From Acidithiobacillus sp. AMEEHan (GTDB lineage: Bacteria > Pseudomonadota > Gammaproteobacteria > Acidithiobacillales > Acidithiobacillaceae), in NCBI RefSeq assembly GCF_030996345.1, contig NZ_CP118747.1:2106001-2170000 (forward strand): a stretch of 64,000 nt of DNA. The letters are read 5' to 3'. Shown here one piece after another: positions 1-36,836 of the stretch. Each line of letters begins with the position of its first letter. Position 1 is the first letter of the stretch. The notes below the pieces were generated by a model. The model was not told the DNA's origin. It made no database searches and saw only the letters and a list, made by a program, of their open reading frames with translations. A program made the translations under genes and the position numbers.

Positions 1-1731
1 GTGGCCATTGCGGCTGAATGCTGCATCGGGCGGCAGCACGACCAGGCGTAATTGCCAGTCATCCGGGACATCGCCACTGGCCGTGAAGATGTGGATACCG
101 CCAAACACACTGGAAGCAAAGGACCTCTGAATTTGGCCACGGATAGCGGGAAACACGTCCTCCTTGTCCTGGAAGCGGCGTTTCCGCTCCTCCATTTCGC
201 GGCGCAGGTTGGGCCGCGTATCGAACCAGAAGCGGTTGTTGCCACTGTTCAGGTAATGCAGGCGGTCACTCAAACGGCGCAGCGCATCTTTGTAGAGGCC
301 AACCTGTTGGCCCGGTTGCGCCACACCCAGCGCGATGCGTTCCAGTTCGATGCCGCGCACCATCTGGTTCAGCGTGCTCGGTGCACTGCCGAGAAAAATT
401 GTCCGTGCGGAACGGCGGCAGGCTTGTAAGCTGCCCAGGCGAGGATCAGCGCTCTCAATCTCAGTGGTTTCCGCACGCTCGCCGTCTACGTCGCGCTCAA
501 CGACCGGATCCCAACCCTGCGGCAGGTAGTAGATCATCTCATTGCGGGTATCCGCATCCTGCAGCGGAAAACTGCCGGGCATGATCAACGGGTCTTTGTC
601 GTTGTCCTTCCAGAGTCGGTGAATGACCTTGGCCATCAACTTCAGCACACCACGGGTGCGCTGGAAGTTGTCGAGTGACGACCAGTCCTCGTAGAGTCGA
701 TCGAACACCTCCGGGTGGATGGGATAGGCGTCCATCAGTCGGTCAAAATACCGGCTTTCCAGTGTCTCGTGGGGGAAATCTTCGCTATTCTCCGTATAGT
801 AATCGGCAAATGCCCGGCATACCGATTCAGCCGCCAGCTTGTCGTTGATACTGGAAAACAGGCGGCGACGGACGATCTCGAACGCCTCCTCGGTGCCCAC
901 CGGCTTCCACAGCGCCTGTATCCGGCCAAAGGCGTGTGCCAGCGCTTCCAATGCCCTCACCCCACGTTGGCTGCCGGCTTCCTTGTCCGATTCGGGTAGC
1001 GACGCCAGCAGCACCGCTGTGGGCACAGCCTTGAGCGCCTCGGTTAGCGCCTGAACAAAACTCAGGTTGGAATCAAAGGTGCCGCCCGCAAGGGTCATGC
1101 CCTCCTCGAATTGGCGCACATAGGCCACCAGCTCGTCGATCAGAATGACACAGGGCGCGTAGCGGCCCAGCAGGTTGGCCAGCACCTCCTTACCTGGCGA
1201 GGTGCCCGAAGCGTCTGCTTGCGCCACCAGCGCGTAGCCCTCGGCCCCGCCTAACTGCCACGCCAAATCTCCCCACAGGGTGCGGATCGCCTGGCCATCA
1301 CGCACCACCGGCTGGTTGGGTGAGGACTTGATGCCATCGAGCACGGCGACACGCGCCTTGGGCAATTCCGTCACGCCAGCCGCATCGAGAATGGCGGGAA
1401 CCCCCGGCAGGTCGCTGGTGTCAGTCGCCCCTTTGGCGAGGTGGTAGACCGCCAGCATCGTATGCGTCTTACCTCCACCGAATGCCGTTTGCAGTTGAAT
1501 GACCGGGTCTCCCCCTTTACCGGTCAGTCGTTTGACCACAGAGTCAAGCAGCAGACGCATGCCTTCGGTGATGAAGGTGCGCTGAAAGAACAGCGTAGGA
1601 TCCTGATACTCAGGCGTCGCCGTGCCTGCGTGGACGCGCGATAGATCCGCGGCAAACTCGGATTGCAGGAAGGTGCCCTTGAGAACATCTTCATGTGGGA
1701 CGGCAATTTCACGCCACGGTTTTAGACTCAT
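1..1731 (-). CDS. DUF499 ATPase of Hma-like defence locus, copy A (partial)
   Basis: The N-terminal 577 codons of a DUF499-family P-loop ATPase; the gene runs off the left window edge. The start is the ATG at 1731, preceded by a GGGGGGAAG Shine-Dalgarno stretch, and the first residues ([10 protein letters not shown]) align with the complete copy B protein ([10 protein letters not shown]). The Walker A motif FGGGKTHTM is near residue 84, and a Walker B-like CVILIDEL lies about 110 residues later. In the Hma/DISARM-like families DUF499 proteins are the ATPase partner of a DUF1156 methylase and a large helicase. The exact molecular role is not established. It begins 15 bp after the methylase stop, so it is the distal gene of the operon. 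The family call is strong; the antiphage role is inferred from gene content. Confidence 0.85.
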
Positions 1732-1746
1732 TGTACTTCCCCCCAA

Positions 1747-4655
<2,909 letters not shown>

Positions 4656-4663
4656 GTTTGGCC

Positions 4664-5281
4664 TTATTTCCAGTGCGCTGGACGTTGGAGCACAAAGCCG
4701 TCGGGTTTGACGACCTGTTCGGGTAACTGGCTGGCGCGCAGCTTGTTTTCGCTGATGGCAAGGTGGCCACTGGCGTATTGCTTGAGGGCTTTGGAATGGC
4801 GATGTGGCGGAAAGGCAACGATGACGCGCTTGGGCGGAAAGCGTTCGCGCACTCGGCGGATGGGCGTGGTGAGGTCACTGTCGCCAGAGATGACCAGGGC
4901 CACGTCGAAAGCATCGTCGAAAGCATCCGTCATCAACTGGATAGCGATGTTCACATCGGTCATCTTTTCTTCGTAGTCCAGCCAAGTGGCGTGACAAGCC
5001 CGGCACTCGCGCTTCTTTTCCAGGTAATGACCGAACTGACTCTGCACCCCTTGAACCGCCAGCGCCTCCAGATAATCGTTCTGCCGCTTCTGGTCCGCCG
5101 CATTGCGGCCATTGTCACAAATACGGGCGGAGAAGTAATGGGTGGCGACCAGTTGCTGGTCTGGTTTGAGCAAGGTGCGGGCCAGCGCGGCCACATCCAG
5201 CCAAAAGTAGCGTTTGAACCGGGCCTGCTTCAGGCCGAAGTACAGGTTGAAACCGTCGATGTAGGCAGCGACGCGGGTCAT
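4664..5281 (-). CDS. NYN/PIN-like nuclease of Hma-like locus, copy A
   Basis: A 205-residue protein of the NYN (LabA/DUF88, PIN-like) nuclease fold. The acidic residues expected for metal binding are visible: D9 in YIDGFN, D109 in MTDVNIA, and D134/D136 in [10 protein letters not shown] CxxC pair (C93, C96) in an inserted segment may bind a metal. The longer open frame starts further upstream, but the ATG at 5281 gives exactly the length of copy B and leaves the hairpin array outside the gene. The stop is 8 bp before the methylase ATG, so the two are co-transcribed. NYN proteins are usually RNases; the target is unknown. Its place directly behind an array of RNA-like hairpins suggests the transcript array may be its substrate or inhibitor (inference). 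Confidence 0.85.
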
Positions 5282-5340
5282 GGACGTGTTTCCGACCCCT
5301 TGCCATGCGTGGCAAAGGTGATACCATACAACCTGCGAAC

Positions 5341-5470
5341 CCCCCGGAGATAGCATCTCCGGCCCGACGCCCCGAAAGGGGCGTTTCTTTTTTGGGGGTT
5401 GCCCCTGGCCCCGCCGGGAATCGCATCTCCGGCCCGAGGCCTCCCTCACGGAGGCGTTTCTTTTTGAGGT
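5341..5470 (-). repeat. Tandem double-hairpin array A (2 units)
   Basis: Two units of about 65 bp lie between the helicase stop and the NYN start. Each unit has two hairpins. On the plus strand, unit 1 has CCGGAGAT-AGC-ATCTCCGG (5344-5362) and ACGCCCC-GAAA-GGGGCGT (5367-5384), followed by a T-rich stretch. Unit 2 has a degenerate first stem (5414-5432) and GCCTCC-CTCAC-GGAGGC (5439-5455). On the transcribed minus strand each unit begins with an A-rich AAAGAAACGCC stretch. The same design occurs at the same place in copy B with three units. It could be a structured RNA, a transcript-stabilising element, or a REP-like repeat family. Confidence 0.75.
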
Positions 5471-5482
5471 TACTCCAGCACA

Positions 5483-8400
5483 TCACTGCATTCTCTCCAC
5501 ACGCACAGCCCGCGCAAGCAACTCGTCAAGGTTGAGGTTGATGCTGGTCACCGCCCAATCCGGTTCCTGTGTGAAGGGTTTGGTCACGTAGAACGGCCCT
5601 TCGTGCTGCTCGCCGTCGACCAGAACGATGGCCAGGATGAATTTGTCCTGCTGGTTCAACCCGTAGAGGATTTCGCTGCGGGTGACGGTAATCGTGCTTT
5701 GCCCCTTGGCGCGCCCCTTCACCTCGATATGCCGGGAGGGTGGGAGCTTGCCATCGACAGCTTTCGGCAGACTGGTCACATCCCAGCCGCATTTCTGCGC
5801 TGAGACATCGATAACCTCATGACCAAGGGCACGCTCGGCATCCATGACGGCCTTCATGGCGACCCATTCCACGTGGGCACGGGCGTTCGCGTCTGCCGTC
5901 CATCCGGATTGCCCCTTGCGCTGTGCCAGCAGGCCGGCAGGGATCACCAGCGCTCCGCCGACTACCACTGGTGTTGCCGAGATCACATGGCGCATGGCCT
6001 GCAGTTCCTTCTCGCGCGTCTCACGCCGGACGGTCAGGTCATCAATGGTCCGGCGTACGTTCTCCAGCGTCAGGCGTACATCTTTGCCAGCGGCGATGTC
6101 GTCCTGCAGCTTGATGTAACGATCACCCCAGAAGTTGATCTCCTTGACCAGACGCTCGTTGACCGCGGCAAGGGTCTTGTCGACCATCTTCTCGCGGCGG
6201 GCACGCACCTCGTCAAAGTGCTCCGGCACCAGATGCGTGGAAGCGTGCGCCAAGGCCTCCTGCTCAAGATTCTGCGTAATCCACGGCGCGCCCAGCACAT
6301 CTTCGATCAGGCCCATGTCGGCTTTGTCGATGGGCTCCAGGTCGAGGTGCGGCGCCCAGCCGGCATTGATCGCGCCCCCCTGCGGGTCGATCTCCACAAA
6401 CTGCATGCGACGGGAAACGACATGGGCCGGGTCGCCCCCTTCCTTCACGGAATGGTCGATGAGAAACATTACCCTGGGGATGAGACCCAGGTCACTGGGA
6501 TCGACCAGTACCGCGCCTTGCTTGAGCTGGTTGCGGTGCGATTCCAGCACCAGGTCGGTAACCGCTTGCATCAGCGGATGCCCTGGGTGGATCAGGCTGG
6601 CCATCGGTACGCCGATCCGCTCGGTGAGGCGGACATATTGCTTCTCAAAACATACGCGCTCGTATTTGCGCAGCACGGGATCGAGGTTGCGGCGATCCCG
6701 CCCGGCAATTCTTCGGTCGCGCTCGCGGATGTTGGCCGGAACGTGGGTAATCTCGTAGCGACCAGGTTCGCGTGGGCGCAGTTCCCCGCCCAGTTGCTGG
6801 AAGGCTTGGCTAAAGAAAGAACGAATGAAGTAGGGTTGAAGCTTCCGCGCTTCTGCCTTTTCCATTTCCTCCTTGACGGCAAACAGCCGTTGCTCATCCA
6901 TCACCTCTTCGCAAAGGGCATTGCGCCGGATGATGGTTTCGAGGTGCTGGGTATCGAGTGCACCTTCGACCTTGCGGTGGAGACGGGCGCGGACTTCGGG
7001 ATCGGCTCCGTAGCGGATCGCCTCGAGCAGCAGGTCTTTGAGACTCTTGTCCTCGAATACCTCGCCGAGAATGTCGAATACGCGGCCGCCTAGTGCGGCG
7101 CGCTCGACTTCCAGCTTTTCGAACAATCGTTGGAAAACGTCACCCTCTCGGGTCTCGTTGGCTACCATGTTCCACAGGTGGCAGACCTCGGTTTGGCCGA
7201 TACGGTGGATGCGGCCGAAGCGCTGCTCCAGACGGTTGGGGTTCCAGGGCAGGTCGTAATTGACCATCAGGTTGGCATTCTGCAGGTTGACGCCTTCCCC
7301 TGCGGCATCGGTGGCAACCAGCACGCGCACGGCAGGATCGTTGCGAAACATCTCCTGCACTTTGCGCCGTTCCTCGCGCTTGACGCCCCCGTGGATTACC
7401 ACCACGGCCTCCTCGCTGCCAATCAACCCGCGAATCTTGACTGCGAGGTAGTTCAGCGTGTCGCGGTGCTCGGTGAAGATGATCAGTTTGCGCTGTCGGC
7501 CATCGGCATCGCGCATCTCCGGCGTATTCTGCAACAGCTTGGATAGCTCGTCCCATTTGCGATCCTGACCAGAATGGACGACCTGCCTGGCTCGCTCCTC
7601 CAGGCCCTCGAGGATGAGGATCTCGGCTTCAAGCTCCTGGATGGTCTGCGCAGCGGTGGCCTGATCGACGACGGCCTCCTCAAAATTCTCGTAATCGTCG
7701 GGCGAGAGCGCATCGTCAGACTCCCAGATATCCTCAGGAGGGTGGTTGAAGCCGATTGCGGGAAGGGTCTCGGCCAACGCCTGGCCACGGCTCCGCAGCT
7801 TTTCTTCCTCGACCCGGCGGGTGAGTTTGATGCGCCGACGCTTGAGCGACTGGTAGATTGCCTCGGGGCTGGAGGCTAGACGGCGCTGCAAGGCCGTGAG
7901 GGCGAAGCCCACGGTGCCTTTGCGCTGACCATCGAGTTGATCGGCCCGGTTCATTTCTTCCTTCACGTAATCGGTAACAGCGGCGTAGAGCGCGGCTTCA
8001 AGATCGGAGAGTTGGTAGTTGGTGGTGTAAGCACGACGTTCCGGAAACAGGCGTGTGCCATCAAAGCGCAGCATGTCTTCCTTGACCATGCGGCGCATCA
8101 GATCGGAGACATCGACCTTGTGGGCGCCATCCCGGAACTTGCCATAGAACCGGTCAGCGTCCAGCAGGGAGAGGAACAGCTGGAAGTCCTCTTCCTTGCC
8201 GTTATGGGGGGTTGCCGTCATCAACAAAAAGTGGCGGGTAATCGAGCCCAGCAACTCACCAAGCTGAAAGCGCTTGGTCTTGTTGACCTTGTTGCCGAAG
8301 TAATTGGCCGAGAGCTTGTGGGCTTCATCGACCACCACCAGGTCCCAGTGCGACAGGCGCAGCTTCTCCTGCATTTCTTCGGCGCGCGCCAGTTGATCGA

Positions 8401-9016
8401 CGCGGGCAACCATCAGATCGATGTCATCAAATGGATTGCCGCTGCGCGACTGCTCGACCTGCTCGCGGGAAAACAGCGCGAAAGAGAGGCCGAATTTCTC
8501 GAACATTTCGTCCTGCCACTGCTCGACCAGGCTACCCGGCGCGACGATGAGCACGCGCTTGGCGTCTGCCCGCATCAGCAGCTCGCGGATCAAGAGACCT
8601 GCCATGATGGTCTTGCCCGCACCTGGATCGTCGGCCAGGACATAGCGCAGGGGTTGGCGCGGCAGCATGGATTCGTAGACCGCCGTGATCTGGTGTGGCA
8701 GTGGCTCGACGTTGGAGGTATGCACCGCCATCATCGGATCGAACAAATGCGCCAGATGAATCCGGTAGGCTTCTGCGGCGAGCTTGAAATCCTCGCCTGG
8801 TGCGTCGAATGCCCAGGGTCGACCAGACTCGGCGAAAGAAAGCTTGGCCTCGTCCGTGCGAAACAGCATCCGCTCCAGTAGCTTGCCGTCTGCAGTCTTA
8901 TAGTAGACGGTGAGCGCGGTATCGCCTACCGGCTCCGTGGTGACGACGCGGACCACCTGCCCGGGCTCGATACCCGATATGGCGGCATTCTTCTGGATCT
9001 GTTCGAGTTTCAGCAC
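5483..9016 (-). CDS. SNF2-type helicase with C-terminal DUF3883, Hma-like copy A
   Basis: An 1177-residue superfamily 2 helicase. Walker A DDPGAGKT is near residue 129, DEAH near 230, and motif III-like LMTATPHNG follows. The second RecA domain carries [16 protein letters not shown] and the [11 protein letters not shown] arginine finger, as in SNF2/RapA-like translocases. Near residue 1090 a DUF3883 domain with [10 protein letters not shown] and [15 protein letters not shown] is visible. DUF3883 resembles PD-(D/E)XK nucleases, so the protein may both translocate on and cut DNA. The start is GTG at 9016, behind GGGAG. It is the first gene of the minus-strand operon (helicase, hairpins, NYN, methylase, ATPase) and is highly similar throughout to copy B. 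Confidence 0.9.
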
Positions 9017-9259
9017 AACGTCTCCCGATATTTCTGCTCAGTCTACATGACTGCAGCGTTGGATGCATAAGGCTAATTGGGCAATAGGAGTGGGGCATGC
9101 GAGATCCATCATGGGCCAACAGTTTTTCAGCCGCCCAACGCGGGTGAATCGAAAATGCCTAAGCGGTAAATAGCCTTGATGTGCTGCAGTATTGGCACGC
9201 GTTCGCCGTTGACACCACACCAGCTATCCATGGGAAACATCGGATGGTTGGGGTGGAAA

Positions 9260-12133
9260 ATGATTCGGGTCAAACCTATCAAGAGCAGTGGCGGGGCAAC
9301 AGGGGTTGCCAACTACCTGCGCAACGAGCGCAAGGACATATCGGCTGAGCAAGCGGTTGGCTATTACAGCGAGGGCGGCGGAGCACCTTCCTTCTGGGCG
9401 GGCCGTGGCGCAGAGGTCTTGGGTCTTTCGGGTGCCGTGGATACCGACCAGTTCCAGGCGCTGCTCGAAGGTAATCTGCCGGATGGAACGGATTTGGCTG
9501 GCCGGCACCAGAGTCGCCGCATGGGCGACGGCTATGTCCTCAGTGCTCCCAAGTCGGTATCCATGATGGCCTGCGAGGACGAACGCTGGAAAGCATGGCA
9601 CGACGAGGGGGTCAAGGCGGCCGTAGCGTTTATGCAGGAGCGCATGGTCTACGCGCGTCTTGGCAAAGGGGGTCGGATATCGGAGTACGACGGGGACATT
9701 ATCGCCGCCGTGCACCGGCACGAAGACGCCCGCCCCGTCGATGGGCTGGTGGATATGGACCTGCACAGCCACGTGACGGTGATCAACGCGATGCGGCGGT
9801 CCGACGGGCAATGGACCAGCATCAACAACGACCAGGGTGTCGATTGTGAACTCCAGAAAGAAGCCGATGCCATTTACTTGGCTACCATGGCCCGATTGGC
9901 CGTCGAGCACGGCTACGAATTGGAGCAAAGCGCTACCGGTTTCGAAGTGGCGGGCATTACCCGCGACCAGATCGAGGCTTTCAGCCGCCGGCGCGGGCAA
10001 ATCCAGGCGGATCTGAGCGACAAGGGCGGCATCGAGGCCGCCAGTGTGGCGCAACGGGACGCGGCCTGGTCCGCCACACGCGCCGAGAAACGGCAACTGA
10101 GCCAGTCAGAGCAACGGTGGGAGTGGCGACGACGCCTGCGGGAGGCCAAGGTTCCCACCAATGACCTATTGGTGAAGAGCCTGGAGCGCGCGAAGCGGCG
10201 GGAAATACAGCACCCAGACCGCGCAACCCTTGCCGTACAGCGGGCGCTGGAGCATTGCAGCGAACACGACACGGTATTCTCGCTCTCAGCTGTCCGCGCG
10301 GAGGCATTGCGGCAGGGTATGGCAGAAGGCCTCTCCATCGAGACGATCGACGCGGCCCTGCATTCAGCTCGCGAGTTGCTAGACGGTGGCGTAGTGGATC
10401 GGGATGGGACCGGCAAGCGGCGCAAGCTGTACACGACCACACAGGCGGTAGCGGAAGAGCTGGCGATACAGGCGATCGCCACAGAGGGCAAGGTTAAGGC
10501 CCTACGATCCCCGGAAGTCGTGTCGGCGCTCCTGGCACAACGACAGCAGGCGCAAGGCTGGAACTATTCCGACGGACAGATCGAGGCCATACAGATGGCG
10601 CTGACCGGCAAAGAGCAACATCAGGGCATCGTCGGTGCCGCCGGGGCGGGGAAAACCACCAGCATGGCTGTCATCGTGGAACACTACCGACAGGTCGGAT
10701 ACGAGGTCATCGGCCTCGCTCCCTCGGCCAAGGCGGCCGCTGAACTGCAGTCGGCGGGTTGCCAGACTCAGACCCTGGAGTCCTTCCTGCGCAGCAAACC
10801 GACGGAGGCCTCCCGTAAGGTGCTCTATATCGTCGACGAAGCGGGTATGGTCTCGCGTCGGGATTTGCTGCGCTTCTATCGGCGGGCACAGCAGGATCGG
10901 GCACGGACCCTGGCCGTGGGCGACCCCCGGCAATTGCTGGCCGTGCAGGCCGGTAATCCCTTCGAGCAACTGTTACGTTGTAACGGTTTCCGCCAGGCCA
11001 GCATCACCCAGATCAACCGGCAGAAGGACAAGGCACTATTGGCCATTGCCGAAGCCTTCGCCAGGGGGGATGCCAAAGAAGGGCTGCGGCTGGCCGATCC
11101 CTATCTGCGGGAAGTTCCCCTGCCCGATCCGGCACCAGGCCAAAAGAAGCTCGACAAACCCGCCAAGCAGGAAGTGTTGGCGAGAGCCGCTGCGGCATCC
11201 TACCTTCGGCTGTCCTCCGAGGAGCGCGGGCAAACCCTGGTTCTCGCGGCCAGCAATGGCACCAGGCGAGTCGCCAATGCCGAGATCCGCAGGGGTCTAA
11301 TCGAGCGGGGGGAATTAGGCCGGGAATCCGTGCGGATCACCGCCCTCGACAAGGTCAGCCTGAGCGTCACCCATCAGGGCCAAGCGGCATTCTATCGGCC
11401 GGGACAAGTGGTGGAACTTGGCCGCGCGGAGTCCGGCGTTGGGGAACGCGGCACTCGCTGGAAGATCGTGGGCATTGAAAATGGCAAGCTGCAAGTCGTC
11501 CCCTTGCAGGCAGAGGCGAAAGTGCCCGTAAACCTCAGGCCTTCGACACAACTGCAATTGTACGACGTGCGTCCGATGGAATTGCGCGAGGGTGACCAAG
11601 TCTTATTCCGACAGAACGACAAGAGCCGAGACCTCGATCTGCGCAACGGCGACGATGCCGTCATTGCCATCCAGAATGGAAAAGCGTTTGCAACGCTGCG
11701 CGATGGAAAGTCGATAGAGCTGAAAACCAGTGAAGTCATGGATTATGGCTACTGCCGCACCGTTCATGCCTCCCAGGGTGCCACGGTGGATCGGGCAATC
11801 GTCATCGCCGAGAGTAGCCGCGCTGGGGCGAACCTCGGCTACGTCGCCCTGAGCCGAGAGAAACACCACCTGGAAATCCTGACTGACGACAAGGACAAGC
11901 TCGCCGAGAGTTGGGGAAAATACGTCCAGCAAGAATCCGCGCGGGAGGCAGCGATGCGCGGCACGCTGCAAACTGCCAGAGACCAAGCACGGGAGGTTAT
12001 CGCGTACCAGATGGCCCATGCTCGTGCTGAAGAGAGAACTCAACGCAAAACCCCAAAACGAGAAAAGGCACGAGACACCCTCACCGCCCACAAGCAACGC
12101 AGCCCTGCCTACGACCAGGGCATTGTTTGGTGA
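9260..12133 (+). CDS. traI: MobF-family conjugative relaxase/helicase (TraI/TrwC-like)
   Basis: A 957-residue relaxase that would nick oriT and unwind the transferred strand. The N-terminal TrwC relaxase domain shows DLHSHVTVINA near residue 166, part of the three-histidine metal site, with an N-terminal YY pair (GYYSEGG) among the candidate nucleophiles. A RecD/TraA-type helicase follows, with Walker A VGAAGAGKTTSM near residue 455 and VDEAGMVS as motif II. The start ATG at 9260 (MIRVKPIKSSGG) follows a GGGGTGG ribosome binding site; an earlier ATG at 9230 is less likely. It is transcribed away from the Hma-like operon. Mobilization genes follow downstream, but no secretion-channel genes are seen, so the element is probably mobilizable in trans. 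Confidence 0.9.
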   Translation: MIRVKPIKSSGGATGVANYLRNERKDISAEQAVGYYSEGGGAPSFWAGRGAEVLGLSGAVDTDQFQALLEGNLPDGTDLAGRHQSRRMGDGYVLSAPKSVSMMACEDERWKAWHDEGVKAAVAFMQERMVYARLGKGGRISEYDGDIIAAVHRHEDARPVDGLVDMDLHSHVTVINAMRRSDGQWTSINNDQGVDCELQKEADAIYLATMARLAVEHGYELEQSATGFEVAGITRDQIEAFSRRRGQIQADLSDKGGIEAASVAQRDAAWSATRAEKRQLSQSEQRWEWRRRLREAKVPTNDLLVKSLERAKRREIQHPDRATLAVQRALEHCSEHDTVFSLSAVRAEALRQGMAEGLSIETIDAALHSARELLDGGVVDRDGTGKRRKLYTTTQAVAEELAIQAIATEGKVKALRSPEVVSALLAQRQQAQGWNYSDGQIEAIQMALTGKEQHQGIVGAAGAGKTTSMAVIVEHYRQVGYEVIGLAPSAKAAAELQSAGCQTQTLESFLRSKPTEASRKVLYIVDEAGMVSRRDLLRFYRRAQQDRARTLAVGDPRQLLAVQAGNPFEQLLRCNGFRQASITQINRQKDKALLAIAEAFARGDAKEGLRLADPYLREVPLPDPAPGQKKLDKPAKQEVLARAAAASYLRLSSEERGQTLVLAASNGTRRVANAEIRRGLIERGELGRESVRITALDKVSLSVTHQGQAAFYRPGQVVELGRAESGVGERGTRWKIVGIENGKLQVVPLQAEAKVPVNLRPSTQLQLYDVRPMELREGDQVLFRQNDKSRDLDLRNGDDAVIAIQNGKAFATLRDGKSIELKTSEVMDYGYCRTVHASQGATVDRAIVIAESSRAGANLGYVALSREKHHLEILTDDKDKLAESWGKYVQQESAREAAMRGTLQTARDQAREVIAYQMAHARAEERTQRKTPKREKARDTLTAHKQRSPAYDQGIVW

Positions 12134-24953: not shown

Positions 24954-25276
24954 TGCAAAACCTCCTTGGCGCGTTGCCGTGCCGTCTCTATGGCCCGCTT
25001 GGGCGTCTTCTGCGCCTTCTTGACGAAAGCATGCAGGATGACCAGCCGTCTCCCGGTTGCCGTGACATATATCGCTCTGGCAATCCCATCCGGTGCCTTG
25101 GCGCGTATTTCCCAGAGCTTGTCCTCCAGGTGCTTGACGTGTGGCTCGTGGATCTGCTCCAGGCCCACCTGCTCAATCAGCTCCACTGTCCGCAATAGAC
25201 GTGCGCGCAACGCGGACGGCAAGGCGTTGAGTTCATCATCAACACGCTGGTCAAGTGTCTCCGCAGTCCACTTCAT
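24950..25276 (-). CDS. higB: HigB-like toxin, RelE superfamily (phage Gp49-like)
   Basis: A 108-residue RelE/HigB-like mRNA interferase candidate. Typical features are HVKHLEDKLWEIRAKAPDGI in the central strands and AIYVTATGRRLVILHAFVKK near the C-terminus, where basic residues of RelE folds contact RNA. The start ATG at 25276 overlaps the integrase stop as ATGA and its own stop overlaps the HigA start, so integrase, toxin and antitoxin are translationally coupled. Cleavage of mRNA at the ribosome is expected from the family, not shown here. Confidence 0.87.
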   Translation of the reverse strand: MKWTAETLDQRVDDELNALPSALRARLLRTVELIEQVGLEQIHEPHVKHLEDKLWEIRAKAPDGIARAIYVTATGRRLVILHAFVKKAQKTPKRAIETARQRAKEVLQ

Positions 25277-26499
25277 AATATAGCGTTTTTGCGATGGCTA
25301 GGCAATTTTTTCATCGGCGTGACCTCGACAGATTTTTTGACTCCGGCAGCCACCAGAATGGCGTCGGTGCCTTTCTGCCAGGCATCGACAACGGGGTCTT
25401 GCGCCAACCTTGCATAGACGGCGGTCGTTTGCTGCGAGTGGTGCCCCAGCCCCTTGCCTATGACGGCCAGAGATACCCCCGCATCGATCTGAAAGGACGC
25501 GAGCGAACGGCGCAAGTCGTGGATGCGTAGGTCATCAATGCCTGCCCGCTGCAATAGCCGTTGCCAGCCCTTTTTGGGCTCTACAAGATGGCCGGTCCTG
25601 CCAGGTCCGGGGAATACCCACCCCTGCGCCCCGGATGTCTCTGCTCGGGACTGCAGCACCTCTATGGCAGCGTCAGTAAGAGGTACGGCGATGCTATCAC
25701 CAGCCTTTGCCTTGGAGCCAGGAATGGTCCACGTTTTGCGCTCTAGATTGATCTCCTGCCAATGCATCGCCAGCACGTTGGAACGACGAGCCCCGGTCAG
25801 CAGGGACAGCATGACATAATCGCGCACGTCCGCGCTTTTCTCGGCGGCCAGTGCCTCAAAAAATCTTGGCATTTCATCGGGGTGCAGGCGACGATCCCGG
25901 CTTTCTTCTCGGTTCATCTTGAGGCCAGCAGCGGGATTGCCCAGTCGCGGAATATCCAGCGTGTTGATTCCAAAATTGAACACGGCACGGACCAAGGCCA
26001 AGACACGGTTGCCCTGATAGAGTCCGGCTCCCGTGCTGACCCTCCGGTGCAGAGCGCGAATATGCTGACGTTCGATATCGGATAGTTTCTTCTTAGCGAT
26101 CTCTTGCAGGTGCAGACGAAAGTTACGCTCGTCGTTACCCAGGCTTTTTTTCCCCTTGGCGCGGCAATCCTTCACCCATTCGGTGAACAAGTCGGAGAAC
26201 GTCATCTCTGCCTTCTTGATGCGCCGCTGCTCAGCCGGGTTAGTCCCTGCGGCAATCTGGTTGATAATCCCCGCGGCGGTCGTGCGAGCCGTCTCAATGG
26301 TCACGGTAGCGGCGTCACCTATACGAATTTCCTCCACCCTGCCATCTACCTTGCGAATGCAGTAGAAGGTCTTGGTCCCGGCTGGGGAAATATATACGGC
26401 TAGACCTTTTTGTTTTTCGTCATAGACGCGGCGACGCTTACCGAGGATTGGTTCCAGCGCCGAAAGACTGGCTTTGGTGAAATTCACTTTCTCAGGCAT
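25273..26499 (-). CDS. int: Tyrosine integrase, P4/DUF4102 type
   Basis: A 408-residue site-specific recombinase. It has an N-terminal arm-binding DUF4102 domain (to about residue 90), a SAM-like core-binding domain, and the catalytic domain with Arg in TGARRSNVLAMHW near 233, HDLRRS near 325, LGHHSQQTT near 350 and the nucleophile Tyr in AVYARLA. P4-type integrases insert into tRNA 3' ends. A tRNA-Lys 3' fragment lies about 260 bp beyond its start, so this enzyme probably catalysed insertion there. Its stop overlaps the higB start. Confidence 0.93.
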   Translation of the reverse strand: MPEKVNFTKASLSALEPILGKRRRVYDEKQKGLAVYISPAGTKTFYCIRKVDGRVEEIRIGDAATVTIETARTTAAGIINQIAAGTNPAEQRRIKKAEMTFSDLFTEWVKDCRAKGKKSLGNDERNFRLHLQEIAKKKLSDIERQHIRALHRRVSTGAGLYQGNRVLALVRAVFNFGINTLDIPRLGNPAAGLKMNREESRDRRLHPDEMPRFFEALAAEKSADVRDYVMLSLLTGARRSNVLAMHWQEINLERKTWTIPGSKAKAGDSIAVPLTDAAIEVLQSRAETSGAQGWVFPGPGRTGHLVEPKKGWQRLLQRAGIDDLRIHDLRRSLASFQIDAGVSLAVIGKGLGHHSQQTTAVYARLAQDPVVDAWQKGTDAILVAAGVKKSVEVTPMKKLPSHRKNAIL

Positions 26500-26975: not shown

Positions 26976-28571
26976 TTATGCGGGCTTGCGGACGTGATAC
27001 AGCGGAGAACGCAGGGGGTTGGCGGCGAAGTGCTCTTTCCAGAGTCTTGGGGTGAGCTGCGCCACGTCCTTGGCGGGGTGGGTGGCCACCCGTTGCAGGA
27101 CATCGACGAGGTAGTCGTACGGGTCCACCCCCTGAAGCCGGCAGGTACTGAGCAGGCTCTGGATGATCCCGAGATACTCGGCGCCCAACTCGGTCCAGCA
27201 AAAGAGCCAGTTCTTCCGGCCCAGGGGAATCGGTCGGATCTGTCGTTCGATGTGGTTGCTGTCTATGGGTACGTCGGGATCTTCCAGAAAGACTTGGAGC
27301 GGACCTTTGCGGCCATGGACATAGGCCAAGGCCTTGGTGAAGAGGTTGCTCGGTAGCAGGGCGATGTCCTGGAGCTGTTGCTCTACCCAGTGGAAGAAGG
27401 CTGTCACCAGCGGCAGGGTATGTCGTCTGCGGTATTCCCGCTTGGCCTGCCCGGTGAGTTGTTTCTCCTGGATTTCTTCCTCGATGCGATAGAACTCCCG
27501 GATCTGCCGGAGGGCTTCGGCCACCCGCTCGGGCTCATGGGCCTCGGCCTTGACGAATTCTCTGCGGCTATGCGCCCAGCACTGGGCATGGACTAGCCCT
27601 TCGTTCTCTTTCTGGAACCGGGCATAGGCGGCATAGCCATCGCTCAGGAGTACGGTGCCCGGCGGCAGCTTGCCGAGTAGCTCTTCGATGTGGACCGTGC
27701 CCCGGGTGGCGGCATAGGGAAAGCAGATCTCCTGGGCATCGCCAAAGACGGGCCAGAAATACCCTCGGTGCATCTTGCCCTTCCCTGACAATCCGGCCTT
27801 GATGGGGGTTTCATCCATGGTCAGCACCCGCGATTGGCGAATGCTCTCGAACTGCGCCGCATAAATCGGTGCAAGCAGGAAGATGGAGCGTTGCACCAAG
27901 TCCGTGAGCCAGGAGCGGCTCACCCGCAGCCCCTGCTGGGTCATGCGCTGATGTTGCCGATACAAGGGCAGATGGTAGAGGAATTTGTCGATCAGGATTC
28001 CCGCCAGGAGACTGACGTCAGCCCGACCACCCTCCAAGACCGCGGCAGGCGCCGGGGCCTGGGTGATCTTTCCGGAGTCGCGCAGTTTCACTACGGGCCG
28101 CTCGTATTTGAGAACTACATAGCTGGCGGGCTCTTGGGCCAAGCGATAGCTGATCTTGGTGTCGATGATCTCATAGGCCGAAGGGTCCAGCCCCTGGGTC
28201 TCGGGAGCCGGCAGCACGATGGTTTCGACCGGCAGGCGCGATTCGTCGAAGAAGGGCAGGCTCTCTGCCTTCTCCTCGGGGCGCTTGGCCACCGTGCGGG
28301 TATGGGCAGCGACGGTACGGGTAGGAACCGGCTGTTTTTCCTGCGCCTCGAAGATCTCGCCGAGACTGAGCTGCTCTATGGGAGGAGGCGGAAGACGGCG
28401 CTCGCTCTTGGGTCCGAAGAGCTGGCGGCGAAACCAATCCAGCTGGGCTTGAAGACCTTGGATCTGTGCCTGAAATTCTTCCCGCAGGGACTGGTTGAGG
28501 AGCACCTGCAATTGCCAAGCGGCGAGGGCTTCGGGGTAGTTGCGTGGGAGCGAGGAAGTCTCTGTTTCCAT
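26976..28571 (-). CDS. tnpC: IS66 transposase TnpC
   Basis: A 531-residue transposase. An N-terminal coiled region (LREEFQAQIQGLQAQLDWFR) and a leucine-zipper-like stretch precede the catalytic core, with Asp in LTMDETPIKAG, Asp in LLSDGYAAYARF and Glu in NHIERQIRPIPLGRKNWLF. The last two bases of the gene overlap the left terminal repeat, typical for a compact IS. Full length for the family. Confidence 0.95.
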   Translation of the reverse strand: METETSSLPRNYPEALAAWQLQVLLNQSLREEFQAQIQGLQAQLDWFRRQLFGPKSERRLPPPPIEQLSLGEIFEAQEKQPVPTRTVAAHTRTVAKRPEEKAESLPFFDESRLPVETIVLPAPETQGLDPSAYEIIDTKISYRLAQEPASYVVLKYERPVVKLRDSGKITQAPAPAAVLEGGRADVSLLAGILIDKFLYHLPLYRQHQRMTQQGLRVSRSWLTDLVQRSIFLLAPIYAAQFESIRQSRVLTMDETPIKAGLSGKGKMHRGYFWPVFGDAQEICFPYAATRGTVHIEELLGKLPPGTVLLSDGYAAYARFQKENEGLVHAQCWAHSRREFVKAEAHEPERVAEALRQIREFYRIEEEIQEKQLTGQAKREYRRRHTLPLVTAFFHWVEQQLQDIALLPSNLFTKALAYVHGRKGPLQVFLEDPDVPIDSNHIERQIRPIPLGRKNWLFCWTELGAEYLGIIQSLLSTCRLQGVDPYDYLVDVLQRVATHPAKDVAQLTPRLWKEHFAANPLRSPLYHVRKPA

Positions 28572-29352: not shown

Positions 29353-32187
29353 CTATTCGGAATCCTCAAACTCCGCGCTCTTGAACTTCAACACATTGCA
29401 GTTTTCCTTGACTGTACGCTGGAGCCCATCATCGAAACCCGTGGCTGAATCCGCCTGAATTTCTATGGCGATTCTGACTTTCACCCCAGGACGGATGGTG
29501 AATTGCTGAACGACTTCCTCGACCAGGTCCGCAAACTGTTTCTTGGCCTGGATGGCATCAAGTTCGACGATTCCATAGAACTGCTTCTTAGGCGGCTGAG
29601 GAGCCGTTACTGCCCCTACCACATAAGCAGGCTTGGACGAATCCTCGACCTTGAGGCCAGTTGTGCCACTATCAATGGTGCCCGGTGTCTCGCCAGTTGC
29701 CTTTGGACGTGCAGCCTCTTCAGCGGCGCGCTGTGCCTGCGCATATTCGGCGGCGTTTTTCGGCTCAATCAACAATAAGGATGTGTCGAAAAACAAAGAG
29801 CTACGTTTTCCGAAAGTAAAACCAACATAGCGCCCATCTTCCTTGCCCTGGGCAAAACCAAAAAATTCTCGGCTCTCTGCAGCAGCGAAAAGCGTCTGCT
29901 GAAAAACCCGATCATCCAGCAAGCGCGGTAGGTAGAGTTGCTGGCAAGTCTGCTGCCAGACATTGAGTGCATTGACGTCTTTGGCATACTCTTTCCAAAA
30001 CCAGTCACGCAATACCTTGGCCAGGTGGATTGGTGCCCACTCGCTGATGAGCAACTCGTTTTCCTTGAGCACGCGCTCGATCTCCTGCGTCCAGTTCTGC
30101 GCCCCCGGATTGAGTGGGAAATGCTCCCAGATCAGCTCAGACAGACCTTTGCCCGGACGTGCCTCCTGCACCGGCGCGAGCAACCACTTGTAGGTTTCGC
30201 GGACCATGCGACGCACGGTCTCCTCCGCCTGCTCCAAACTGGCCTGTGCCTGCTTGGCCATGAGGTTGTCGAGGACGATGCGATTGTCCTTGTAATCCGC
30301 AACGATGCTGCGCCACGCCAGGTATGAACGAATGTGGTCCTTCAGCCGACTCACGTTATCGGAGTCCGCGGCCAGGAAGATCAGCCGGTTTTGCTTGAAT
30401 CGTGGCTGGTCACCACGTTTTTTGAGGATTTCCGTCGCACGCTCAATGGCAAGCGTCTGGCTGGTCCTGCTGAAAGCCGCATCCGGCGGCAATACCACCA
30501 GCCGCAGTGCCCAGTCGTCGGGCACGTCACCACTGCCGGTGAAGACGTGGATGCCGCCAAACACCCCGCTGGCAAAGCTGCGCTGCACGCGGTCACGGAT
30601 CGCAGGGAATACATCCTCTTTGTCCTGAAAGCGGCGCTTGCGTTCTTCCATTTCGCGCCGCAGATTGGGGCGTGTGTCGAGCCAGTAACGATTGTTGGCG
30701 TGGTTGAGGTAATGCAGTCGATCACCCAGACGCCGCAGCGCGTCCCTGAACAGGCCGGGCTGTTGCCTTGGCTGCGCCACACCCAGAATCACGCGCTCCA
30801 ACTCCAGGCCGCGCACGCCCTGGTTGGAGGTACTGGGTGCACTGCCCAGAAAGATGGCACGCGCCGCACGCCGGCAGGCCTGCACGCTGCCAAAGCGGGT
30901 ATCGTTGTTTTCGATCTCCCAGGTTTCTGAGCGTTCACCATCCACGTCGCGTTCGATCACCGGTGTCCATCCCTGGGGCAGGTAGTACAGCAGCTCGTTC
31001 AGCGTATCAACGTCCATTAACGGAAAACTGCCAGGCATAATCAGCGGGTCGTTGTTCCCGTCTCTCCACAGGCGGTGAATTACCTTGGCCATCAGCTTCA
31101 GCACTCCGCGGGTACGCTGGAAGTTGTCCAGCGTCGACCAATCCTCATAGAGGCGGTCGAAGACCTCGGGGTGGATCGGATAGGCGTGTATCAATCGCTC
31201 AAGATACTTACTGCCCTGGGTCTCCTGCGGGAAGTCGTCACGATTCTCAATGTAGTAATCTGCGAACGAGCGGCAGACCGACTCCATCGCCAGTTTGTCG
31301 CTGATGTTGGAAAAGAGCCGCCGACGCACGATCTCGAAGGCCTCCTCGGTGCCCACCGGCTTCCATAGCGCCTGTACGCGGCCGAAGTAGTGTGCCAAGG
31401 CTTCCAGCGCCTTCACCCCGCGCTGGCTGCCGGCTTCCTTGTCGGATTCCGGCAACGAGGCCAGCAAAACCGCCGTGGGAACAGCCTTCAGCGCTTCCGT
31501 CAGTGCCTGTACGAATGACAGGTTGGAGTCGAAGGTGCCGCCGGTGAGGGTTTTGCCTTCCTCGAACTGACGCACATAGGCCACCAGCTCGTCGATGAGA
31601 ATGACACAAGGTGCATGGCGAGCCAGCAGGCTGGCCAGGGTTTCCTTACCCGGTGACGTGCCCGACACGTCGGCTTCGGCAACCAGAGCAAAACCTTCCG
31701 ACCCGCCCAATTGCCAAGCCAGGTCACCCCACAAGGTACGAATGCTTTGTCCGTCTCGCAGCACCGGCTGGTTGGGTGAAGACTTGATTCCATCAAGCAC
31801 CGCGACCCGTGCCCGTGGCAGTTCCGTAACACCCGCTGCATCGAGAATGGCCGGGATGCCAGGCATGTCACTTGGCGGAACTTCGCCGCGGGCCAGGTGA
31901 TAGACCGCCAGCATGGTGTGGGTCTTGCCACCACCAAAGGCGGTTTGCAACTGGATCACCGGGTCGCCGCCTTTGCCCGTCAGCCGCTTTACCACCGAAT
32001 CCAGCAGCAGGCGCATGCCCTCAGTGATGAAGGTACGTTGGAAGAAGAGCGCCGGGTTCTGGTATTCGGCGTTGGCCGTGCCTGCATGGACCCGCGACAG
32101 GTCGGCGGCGAATTCGGCCTGCTGGAACTTGCCTTCCCGCACATCAGCGTGCGGCTCTGCGATTTCGCGCCAGGGTTTTAGAGTCAT
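29353..32187 (-). CDS. DUF499 ATPase of Hma-like defence locus, copy B
   Basis: A complete 944-residue DUF499 protein. Walker [11 protein letters not shown] is near residue 83 and Walker [20 protein letters not shown] lies about 110 residues later. The N-terminal 570 residues align closely with copy A. The C-terminal third (from about residue 790) contains low-complexity [19 protein letters not shown] and ends with [16 protein letters not shown]. Its ATG overlaps the stop of the embedded gene upstream (CCATGA), so translation is coupled. It is the last gene of the locus; an IS66 copy begins just beyond the stop. Defence role inferred from the operon. Confidence 0.88.
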
Positions 32188-33065
32188 GGAGTCACTCCCA
32201 AAATAGCCAGAATGGCGTGAAACCAGTGAAGACGAATACCTTCAGGTAGAAGATTCAATACCTGAATTGCGGACAGAAAACCAAATCCCGCACCGACCCA
32301 CTGCCAACGCCGGGTTTCTTTATCTCGTTCATTTGCTGCAACCAGTTTGTGTAACGCCTGAAGCTGATCGAGAAACTCCTGATTGATCTGTGCCAGCCGC
32401 ATCCGCTCTGCGATCAAATCCCACACCAGCGGAAGCTCTTTGCGATCCATCAACACAGGATATCGGAAGTAGTGCCGCGCATTGAATTCCGCGGAAAGGC
32501 GAATCAGTCGTGACAGCTCTTTGGGTAGCCCGTCCCATTCAGCCATCTTTACGATCAATGCCTGAATGCGCTGCTGATATGCGCACGCCAATGCCAGCAA
32601 AATAACAAATCGTTCGAACCTGTGTTGGTGCTGGCAAACAACCGAGAGTGCAGCGCCATCGACAGCCAACCAGAGGCCATCCCCAAGCTTTTCGTGGCTC
32701 TCGATCGTTAGCGTTGCGCTACCACGTAGCCATTTGGATGCGAGACTGCTTTGCTCATCCGTGGGTCCGCTGTTTGAGCAGGTTTGCCAAATTGACAGAG
32801 CCACGACGTCACCGCTTTTTTTCTGCTCGCTGTTAGAAAACGAAACCAGAAATCTGGTTTCATATTCTGTTCCGGAGAAAAACGTGAGGCGCCATTGTGT
32901 TTGATCAGTGCCTTGGAGTGTTTTTGCCGACCCTTCAAATCGATCCAGCAAAGGTTTTTGCAGAAAACCGACACCCTTGCCATTGATCGTTAATTTCTGC
33001 CAGTCATGATCTTTGACGTGGGCTTGGTCTTCAGCAGTAGAAATCGTGACATATTGCAGAGCCAT
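32184..33065 (-). CDS. Unknown membrane-anchored protein embedded in Hma-like locus B
   Basis: A 293-residue protein without a family I recognise. The first 120 residues are beta-rich ([14 protein letters not shown]). The middle is helical and rich in aromatic and basic residues. The C-terminus holds one or two membrane segments ([18 protein letters not shown], then [12 protein letters not shown]). The start ATG at 33065 is 11 bp after the methylase stop, behind GCGAGGC. The stop overlaps the DUF499 start. Copy A lacks this gene entirely: there methylase and ATPase are 15 bp apart. Genes inserted inside Hma loci are, from memory, catalogued as Hma-embedded candidates. A membrane-disrupting effector is one guess. 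Confidence 0.7.
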
Positions 33066-33076
33066 TTTTGCCTCGC

Positions 33077-35959
<2,883 letters not shown>

Positions 35960-35971
35960 TTTTCTACCTTT

Positions 35972-36589
35972 TCAGCGCCAGGTATCCGGGCGGGTAAGCA
36001 CGTAGCCGTCGGGCTTGATCAGCCGATCTGGCAACTGACTGGCGCGCAGCTTGTTTTCACTGATGGCAAGGTAGCCGTTGGCATGCTGCTTAAGTGCCTT
36101 AGAGTGGCGCTGCGGCGGGAAGGCCACGATGACGCGCTTGGCCGGAAAGCGTTCACGCACACGGCGGATCGGCGTAGTCAGGTCACTGTCGCCGGAAATG
36201 ACCAGGGCTACGTCGAAGACATCGTCGAAAGCGTCTGTCATCAACTGGATGGCGATGTTGACATCGGTCATCTTTTCTTCGTAGTCCTGCCAGGTGGCGT
36301 GGCACACCAGGCACTTACGCTGCTTTTCGAGGTAGTGGCCGAACTGGCACCGCACGCCTTGAACGGCCAGCGCCTCCAGATAGTCCTTCTGCCGCTTCTG
36401 GTCAGCCACGTTGCGACCGTTGTCGCGGATGCGGGCGGAGAAGTAGTGCGTTGCAAGCAGTTGCTGCCCCGGCTTGAGCAGGCTGCGCGCCAGCGCTGCC
36501 ACATCCAGCCAGTAGTAGCGTTTGAATCGGGACTGCTTCAGGCCGAAGTAGAGGTTAAAGCCGTCGCTATAGGCAACAACGCGGGTCAT
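35972..36589 (-). CDS. NYN/PIN-like nuclease of Hma-like locus, copy B
   Basis: A 205-residue NYN-domain protein of the same length as copy A. The acidic residues are conserved: D9 in YSDGFN, D109 in MTDVNIA, and D134 and D136 in SGDSDLTTP. The CxxC pair (KCLVC) is also kept. The start ATG at 36589 follows GGGAGG at good spacing. On the coding strand a TATAAT lies about 40 bp before the start, between the hairpin array and the gene, so the gene may also have its own promoter. It is directly behind the hairpin array and directly before the methylase. Confidence 0.87.
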   Translation of the reverse strand: MTRVVAYSDGFNLYFGLKQSRFKRYYWLDVAALARSLLKPGQQLLATHYFSARIRDNGRNVADQKRQKDYLEALAVQGVRCQFGHYLEKQRKCLVCHATWQDYEEKMTDVNIAIQLMTDAFDDVFDVALVISGDSDLTTPIRRVRERFPAKRVIVAFPPQRHSKALKQHANGYLAISENKLRASQLPDRLIKPDGYVLTRPDTWR

Positions 36590-36645
36590 CGGCTTGCCTC
36601 CCAGCTCTTGCCATGCGACTCAAAGATTATATACTGTGATGCGGT

Positions 36646-36836
36646 AACCCCCCGGAGATAGCATCTCCGGCCAGACGCCCCGAAAGGGGCGTTTCTCTTT
36701 GTGGGGTTGACTCCAGCCCCACCGGAGATAGCATCTCCGGCCCAACGCCTCCTTCGTGGAGGCGTTTTCCTTTGTGCCCCGCCATGGTGAGCAGCCATGG
36801 CCCGACGCCCTCCCCGTGCGGGCGTTTCTCTTTGTA
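36646..36836 (-). repeat. Tandem double-hairpin array B (3 units)
   Basis: Three units of about 65-70 bp. Hairpin 1 is CCGGAGAT-AGC-ATCTCCGG in units 1 and 2 (36652-36670, 36722-36740) but GCCATGG...CCATGGC in unit 3 (36781-36801). Hairpin 2 is ACGCCCC-GAAA-GGGGCGT (36675-36692), AACGCCTCC-TTCGT-GGAGGCGTT (36744-36766) and ACGCCC...GGGCGT (36805-36825). The sequence changes while the pairing is kept, which points to selection on RNA or DNA structure. Linkers share CCCC and a CTTTGT or TTCTCTTTG stretch. The array lies between the helicase stop and the NYN start, as in copy A. Confidence 0.8.

Follow-up and report, generated by a model that had tools for sequence, protein, structure and literature searches.

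The repeat array between the helicase and nuclease genes of an Hma defence operon is probably a small-RNA gene paired with the adjacent NYN nuclease gene, its RNA most likely binding the NYN protein and keeping the nuclease inactive. The RNA structure, its promoter and terminator signals, the linkage and co-inheritance of RNA and NYN gene, a kept active site and an asymmetric pattern of loss were all computed here; transcription, binding, inhibition, toxicity and the trigger we infer. Together the two genes probably form an undescribed bipartite RNA-NYN toxin-antitoxin-like module, and the best reading by analogy is that it would work like a type III toxin-antitoxin (TA) or AbiF-RNA system with a different nuclease family.

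Organization of the Hma loci and their repeat arrays

The window, by which we mean the whole 64,000-nucleotide stretch analysed (C1:2106001-2170000 of a 2.63 Mb genome), carries an Hma operon on its minus strand (Table 1). The preliminary description had reported two tandem units of two hairpins each between the helicase and NYN genes, about 60 bp before the NYN start, and both statements were confirmed: the units occupy 5336-5466, between HmaA (stop end 5483) and the NYN ATG at 5281. A core pattern allowing up to three mismatches matched four times in the window, versus a mean of 0.26 in shuffled sequences. HmaC of the first locus runs on past the left edge of the window, and the start of the first HmaB was placed by inference, as the PADLOC match begins at residue 96 of a longer ORF.

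The layout was also said to recur at a second locus, and it does, with three units there rather than two. R1, a covariance model of the unit, found seven copies in this genome, split 2, 3 and 2 among three Hma loci that all have a HEC-09 NYN gene next to the array; HmaA, HmaB and HmaC occur together at all three. One further match scored 20 bits and only the three NYN loci exceeded 21 bits, with 150 of 1128 first-look candidates scored. The element is therefore not the genome-wide REP-like repeat that had been raised as a possible objection. Mobile-element genes lie near the Hma loci (TrwC relaxase, 9176-12133; phage-type integrase, 25273-26499; IS66 transposase, 26976-28571), and a 320-aa protein encoded between the second HmaB and HmaC (32184-33146) matched nothing in Pfam or PADLOC at E <= 0.001.

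Table 1. Features of the first and second Hma loci, and the third RNA copy of the genome (window positions unless a contig is given).
Feature	Position	Strand	Evidence
HmaC ATPase, 5' part	1..1731	-	tblastn on adjoining stretch L227: 77% identity, 948 columns
HmaB DUF1156 methylase	1747..4656	-	PADLOC HmaB 1768 bits
NYN-domain nuclease, 205 aa, PADLOC HEC-09	4664..5281	-	Pfam NYN 50.3 bits; HEC-09 324 bits
Predicted sigma70-type promoter of small RNA, TTGCCA-N16-TACCAT, TG before -10	5300..5327	+	
Small RNA unit 1	5334..5393	+	R1 68.9 bits (unit in training set); fold -27.8 kcal/mol; family covariation
Small RNA unit 2, built like unit 1 but with its first hairpin imperfect	5405..5466	+	R1 61.4 bits (in training set)
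HmaA helicase with NOV_C (DUF3883)	5483..9016	-	Pfam; PADLOC HmaA 2152 bits
Second HmaC	29353..32187	-	PADLOC HmaC 1558 bits
Second HmaB	33077..35959	-	PADLOC
Second NYN nuclease, HEC-09, 84% identical to first	35972..36589	-	Pfam; PADLOC 321 bits
Predicted promoter of second RNA array, TTGCCA-N16-TATACT	36608..36635	+	
Second locus RNA unit 1	36643..36701	+	R1 63.2 bits
Second locus RNA unit 2	36713..36774	+	R1 65.8 bits
Second locus RNA unit 3, first stem CCATGG..CCATGG	36773..36834	+	R1 65.1 bits
Second HmaA	36851..40420	-	PADLOC
Third RNA copy, elsewhere in genome	C1:860025-860156		

The array is predicted to be transcribed away from NYN

The preliminary description had assigned the array to the coding strand of NYN. 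This assignment is overturned by a predicted promoter and the terminators of both units, which lie on the plus strand and would direct transcription away from NYN. The promoter is present at both other copies in the genome with -10 elements TATACT and TACTAT and the same 16-nt spacer, and it gives a start near 5334 as the predicted 5′ end of unit 1. This unit consists of a hairpin CCGGAGAT-AGC-ATCTCCGG, a CCC linker and a terminator stem GACGCCCC-GAAA-GGGGCGTT followed by a U-tract. The terminator stems of the two units lie at 5366-5385 and 5439-5455, each followed by a T run.

Wobble pairs lean to the same strand, with G-U versus A-C cells at 49:16 and 60:22 in the alignments A2 and A6 described below, although about half of this lean comes from the outer pair of stem 2, without which the counts are 23:15 and 37:22. 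The strand call rests on the promoter and terminators, the wobble pairs being weaker evidence than first counted. Folding energy does not discriminate between strands at the window locus, where z is -2.40 for the plus strand (137 nt) and -2.04 for the minus strand (133 nt). Unit 1 has a z of -3.15, unit 2 by itself is no more stable than shuffled sequences (0.30), and the second locus gives -8.75 (plus) and -4.83 (minus). As evidence for RNA structure, folding energy is weaker than covariation.

Promoter-like sites also precede the RNA in related loci. An approximate promoter matrix was applied to 29 of the 33 clade-A RNA loci, with the near-duplicates L021, L022, L023 and L030 left out. In 24 loci the RNA is preceded by a sigma70-type site at a distance of 0-11 nt, mostly 3-8; three of these loci are the copies from the window's genome, and 22 of the 24 sites have a shuffle p <= 0.01 (the failures are L029, 0.130, and L044, 0.115). 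In all five other loci, of Bacteroidetes type, a TAnnTTTG box ends exactly 6 nt before the RNA; we take this box to be the −7 motif of the Bacteroidetes lineage itself. L015 also bears a Bacteroidetes title, yet its site is of sigma70 type.

Both hairpins covary

Covariation was analysed in the training alignment A2 and in A6, drawn from loci outside A2, and both hairpins covary in each. A2 holds 37 units (36 distinct) and omits, of the 41 NYN loci described below, L009, L013, L035 and ten clade C loci; 92.4% of its cells are paired, a value biased upward because the units were picked by a hairpin scanner. Two-sided changes occur at 13 of 18 pairs, and the covariation score is 0.476 versus 0.09-0.13 for slid controls. 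A6 takes 30 of 41 R1 matches (29 distinct units), leaving out duplicates and the weakest matches (L059, L158, L159, L163 and also L152). Its paired fraction of 92.9% leans the same way, as all of its units were found with R1; two-sided changes occur at 15 of 18 pairs and the score is 0.401 versus 0.07-0.14. A whole stem is swapped with pairing kept in unit 3 of the second locus, where CCGGAG..CTCCGG has become CCATGG..CCATGG. Unpaired elements conserved in A2 are the loop [UG][AC]G[CU]A and the linker CCCGACG, the latter belonging to a conserved CCCGACG..CGUUUC pair of elements.

These patterns bear on whether the palindromes act as DNA. An operator or other DNA-level palindrome, used for example in autoregulation by NYN or an HTH protein, would suit the near-perfect dyad of hairpin 1, but it is hard to reconcile with stems that vary through compensatory changes while loop and linker stay conserved, or with a promoter and terminator that frame the unit, and we give it hardly any credence.

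Rfam 15 at gathering score returned no match over the RNA in the window and 20 further NYN loci, and five relatives searched at E up to 5 gave none over the RNA. Weak matches of the window locus to Atu_C8, MIMT1_1 and NLPC-P60 were rejected as far below the cut-offs and indicative of no known RNA family. The abiF RNA (RF03085) was not found at 5250-5500 at E up to 5, nor in the window at gathering score.

RNA and NYN genes are linked across phyla

NYN homologues were collected from 41 loci of a GTDB species set, titled Proteobacteria, Planctomycetota, Chloroflexi-type, Bacteroidetes, Actinobacteria, Caldisericales, Armatimonadetes and others. R1 scores at least 38 bits immediately upstream of NYN in 30 of these loci, 28 of which were used to build it. 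The remaining 11 are L035, which has a same-strand element, and ten distant actinobacterial homologues (clade C), where nine loci give weak R1 matches (13.8-27 bits) and similar elements were seen by eye.

Surveys of 891 sampled genomes yielded 20 NYN genes that reach 240 bits, a line for "close" homologues drawn after seeing where R1 matches end, and all 20 adjoin an R1 match (11 are from new genomes and nine from window or 41-locus genomes). In the window's phylum (398 genomes, 13 candidates scored), each of eight NYN genes of at least 290 bits has its match within about 135 nt. Similarly, a match accompanies all ten genes of at least 280 bits in Bacteroidota (by title the phylum of G020; 247 genomes, 21 candidates scored), two of them, L118 and L119, at 39.3 bits, and both genes of at least 240 bits in Actinobacteria (by title the phylum of G024; 246 genomes), one of which carries a stop codon. 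NYN genes of 200-211 bits (L120, L122 and L123) had no R1 match. A covariance model of the space upstream of NYN was the check that the preliminary description had proposed, and its concern that homologous loci might lack the element is not borne out among these 20 genes.

The linkage also holds from the side of the RNA. In 31 NYN-bearing genomes, namely the window's own and 30 from the 41-locus set, with at most 150 first-look candidates scored per genome, R1 matches reaching 38 bits number 41; 40 adjoin a NYN gene, and the one exception sits at a contig end that fits. A Mantel test over 21 loci, two near-identical ones of 23 having been dropped, points to co-inheritance of RNA and NYN (r 0.738; 0 of 5000 permutations). 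A REP- or attC-like repeat or plain terminator with no NYN-specific role is thus very improbable and already largely refuted: palindromic units and solo copies beside other genes, one of them 15 nt 3′ of a tRNA-Ala gene, would fit such an element, but not the near-exclusive adjacency to NYN, the confinement of copies above 21 bits to three NYN loci of the window's genome, or the promoter in front of the RNA. Six matches of 29-33 bits (L068-L073) were set aside as chance, the same genomes having no HEC-09 gene at E <= 1e-10. A match of 30 bits was found at G030:C19 (L058).

The NYN protein retains a putative nuclease site

The HEC-09 profile matches the whole protein, residues 1-205, at both loci (Table 1), and the PF01936 NYN score compares with a cut-off of 24.2 bits. 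An AlphaFold2 model (pLDDT 94.9) resembles VPA0982 and the MARF1 NYN domain; the nearest solved folds include 2qip (Z 18.2, 157 residues, rmsd 2.7), and mouse MARF1 NYN aligns with Z 16.1 (148 residues, rmsd 2.7). D9, D109, D134 and D136, with N12, likely form an acidic site. In a set of 76 proteins, from which the short L088 was dropped, D109 and D136 are present in every member and D134 in 75; D9 and N12 occur in all 76, counts biased because 39 of the proteins were located by a motif demanding these residues. The family also has an invariant CxxC (C93, C96) at a turn between two predicted strands (alignment A3), extended to four cysteines in actinobacterial members, which is a possible zinc-binding RNA contact.

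The RNA outlives the NYN gene

Among 25 Bacteroidota RNAs, eight have an intact NYN gene, four a broken one, four a stub of 14-28 codons (that of L153 judged by eye) and nine none found within flanks of ~1.5 kb, leaving 17 copies without intact NYN; some of the broken genes may be assembly errors. In the window's phylum, two of ten RNA loci of at least 39 bits are without intact NYN: G300 is a decayed Hma locus with RNA, and the RNA of G285 lies beside a tRNA-Ala gene. In a set of 57 related genomes that counts the window's own, the only other one with RNA or NYN is G917. This genome of the same genus keeps two RNA units, while its NYN gene joins residues 1-25 to 147-205 in frame, a deletion that takes out D109-D136. 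No close NYN gene without RNA was seen among the 20 of at least 240 bits in 891 genomes. Loss of NYN with retention of RNA, and not the reverse, is predicted by an antitoxin-toxin pair and not by a cofactor. Solo RNAs might also persist as terminators of neighbouring genes or because the decay is recent.

This asymmetry weighs against a role of the RNA as a positive partner, that is, a cofactor, guide or substrate for NYN activity or targeting, as ncRNAs serve DRT and CRISPR effectors. The constant linkage, the co-inheritance, the conserved loop, the CCCGACG..CGUUUC elements and the invariant CxxC speak for such a partner; but NYN genes should then occur as inert orphans and the RNA should decay once NYN is lost, the opposite of what is seen, and no variable spacer-like segment stands out in A2. 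We consider a positive role unlikely.

Several solo or truncated loci have noteworthy neighbours. A solo RNA at L062:1410-1562, scoring 72.5 bits, is separated by 15 nt from the 3′ end of a tRNA-Ala gene, with which it could be co-transcribed or as whose terminator it could act. At L147:1821-2717 and at L152, RNA and an NYN stub are followed by an Abi_2 (AbiF-type) gene (by Pfam in L147, by eye in L152); one of these RNA-linked systems may take the other's place. In a Bacteroidales genome, an abiF RNA (RF03085, 52.9 bits) at L051:1980-2016 is found near the NYN-RNA module. The RNA of L156 (and, by eye, of L154) is directly divergent to an hsdR gene with NYN missing, and at L141:416-1240 a solo RNA and a DUF3800 gene point away from each other. 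At L065/L077 (G032:C143), two RNA units are followed by a repeated match to the HmaA C-terminus and then by one more RNA unit with NYN, an order that is a partial duplication of the locus.

Orientation of the RNA varies within the NYN family

We scanned 88 NYN upstream regions for a two-hairpin element with a T-tail. The element was found in 74, above the 95th percentile of 314 control windows; the scan dropped L013 (short) and L089, L107, L121, L125, L134 and L168 (no located start motif), and fragment NYN matches from the genome surveys were not entered. No recognisable element was seen at L090, L164, L167 and L171. The majority of the distant homologues examined carry a similar arrangement of promoter, hairpin and terminator; by eye, the element lies on the NYN strand in many of them, often with a promoter-like site in front. 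In a tree of the 76 proteins the divergent layout forms one large clade, with L012 (same strand) as an exception inside it and L086 (divergent) outside. In clade B, whose members are clearly same-strand, the RNA sequence differs from that of the window, and the 14 units aligned have their stems out of register.

The occurrence of the RNA in either orientation, as in L012, favours a role in trans. Action in cis on expression of NYN or the operon, as an antisense RNA, an attenuator or through interference from a divergent promoter, could draw on the RNA being antisense to the HmaA-NYN junction in Hma loci and on the clade B element being a terminator in front of NYN. Orientation nevertheless differs between branches while adjacency stays, and at the window locus, where this was calculated, pairing between unit 1 and the NYN leader was equalled by 148 of 200 shuffled leaders, so that antisense control of the leader was rejected. 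Overall, we regard a cis mechanism as quite unlikely.

Relation to known RNA-protein systems

In our preferred reading, an RNA that checks the nuclease, a small-RNA gene of one to three units (two in the window) would be transcribed from its own promoter away from NYN, and an intrinsic terminator after each unit would yield two-hairpin RNAs of ~60 nt. These RNAs would bind the NYN endoribonuclease and hold it inactive. Phage infection or host damage might lower or alter the RNA and free NYN, which would then cut RNA and lead to cell arrest or death. Within Hma and type I restriction loci, the module could thereby act as a reserve effector.

The original idea, an RNA that serves as antitoxin, substrate or guide by analogy with type III TA systems, holds in part. 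What stands is an RNA gene that belongs to NYN in a type III TA-like manner, as indicated by linkage, covariation, promoters and decay asymmetry. With ToxIN, CptIN and TenpIN it shares an RNA gene beside a ribonuclease gene, a terminator ending the RNA gene and a defence context. The same-strand, RNA-before-toxin layout of ToxIN is not found in the window, where the genes are divergent, but L012 has it, and so do further branches of the family such as clade B. The likeness to the tandem-repeat antitoxin ToxI had to be given up, as each unit here has its own terminator and most loci have a single unit. Type III toxins are of ToxN, CptN or TenpN type. For the window nuclease a Pfam scan gives NYN only, and ToxN is absent from the list of structure matches, an absence that is no evidence against a ToxN-like fold.

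By analogy, the nearest precedent is AbiF (Abi_2) with RCd22, likewise a small structured RNA beside a toxic defence protein. RCd22 is reported to bind AbiF directly and so to neutralise it, both in cis and in trans (PMC12373285). The window module differs in protein family (Pfam NYN, not Abi_2) and has no abiF RNA at the array. An NYN-type nuclease in a defence locus is also known from the B. fragilis Cmr system, described as a Mn2+-dependent ssRNase with a proposed role in trimming crRNA intermediates (PMC11346440); the abstract names no small-RNA partner of the window type.

The window NYN protein itself is PADLOC HEC-09, one of the Hma-embedded candidates (HECs) described in PMC12988326. 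HEC-09 models the protein alone and takes in neither an RNA partner, nor contexts outside Hma, nor the asymmetric decay. The main text of the PADLOC paper names Hma and does not contain NYN, and another paper mentions HEC-09 once, in a correlation list (PMC12447246). None of the literature matches listed is a paper on an RNA partner of NYN, although a preprint could exist. If correct, our reading would give the RNA-protein systems of toxin-antitoxin and abortive-infection type a further toxin fold, NYN, together with a new RNA family, and would explain how the candidate HEC-09 works. A gene modelled as a protein alone would then have a constant RNA partner missed by protein-based discovery, and HEC-09 clones assayed without the RNA may give toxicity or a false negative.

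Genomic contexts and plasmid-borne relatives

The preliminary description had treated these loci as Hma-like, yet the module is not Hma-specific: Hma genes were recognised in four of the 41 loci (L006, L007, L008 and L013) and in the other 37 none was found, as counted on the available stretch of each locus, some contigs being short. In L022 the NYN-RNA module lies between hsdS and hsdR, and at other loci its neighbours were catalogued simply as ORFs. The gene for the anticodon nuclease PrrC likewise lies between hsdS and hsdR, in type Ic restriction-modification loci, but PrrC is held by restriction-modification proteins rather than by RNA and is of another nuclease family. A DUF1016 protein is encoded between hsdM and hsdS of the same module-bearing restriction locus (L022:6038-6640).

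Among plasmid records, 367 carry NYN homologues, 207 of them from Klebsiella and 45 from Escherichia, and among the 25 matches listed the enterobacterial plasmids measure 3.5-5.0 kb; further matches come from three phage records and 40 viral contigs. In three enterobacterial plasmids read upstream of NYN, a conserved structured leader and a terminator precede the gene. On pTHEOS01 of Thermus oshimai, an NYN protein (66% identical) is encoded beside a helicase with NOV_C, with a divergent RNA of 58.7 bits. It is about an even question whether all of these belong to one previously unrecognised, phylum-spanning class, in which NYN RNases would be checked by two-hairpin RNAs, same-strand or divergent, on small enterobacterial plasmids, viral contigs and Hma or restriction loci, and in which an RNA that remains once its toxin is gone may shield the cell from incoming modules. 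Relatives in Thermus and on E. coli plasmids of 3.5-5.0 kb put the module within reach of direct tests. The three plasmids read (NZ_CP097217, NZ_CP112889 and NZ_CP091701; L223, L224 and L226) are RNAI-type replicons of 3.5-4.3 kb from E. coli and Klebsiella, and their structured leader is long and conserved, with the terminator just before NYN.
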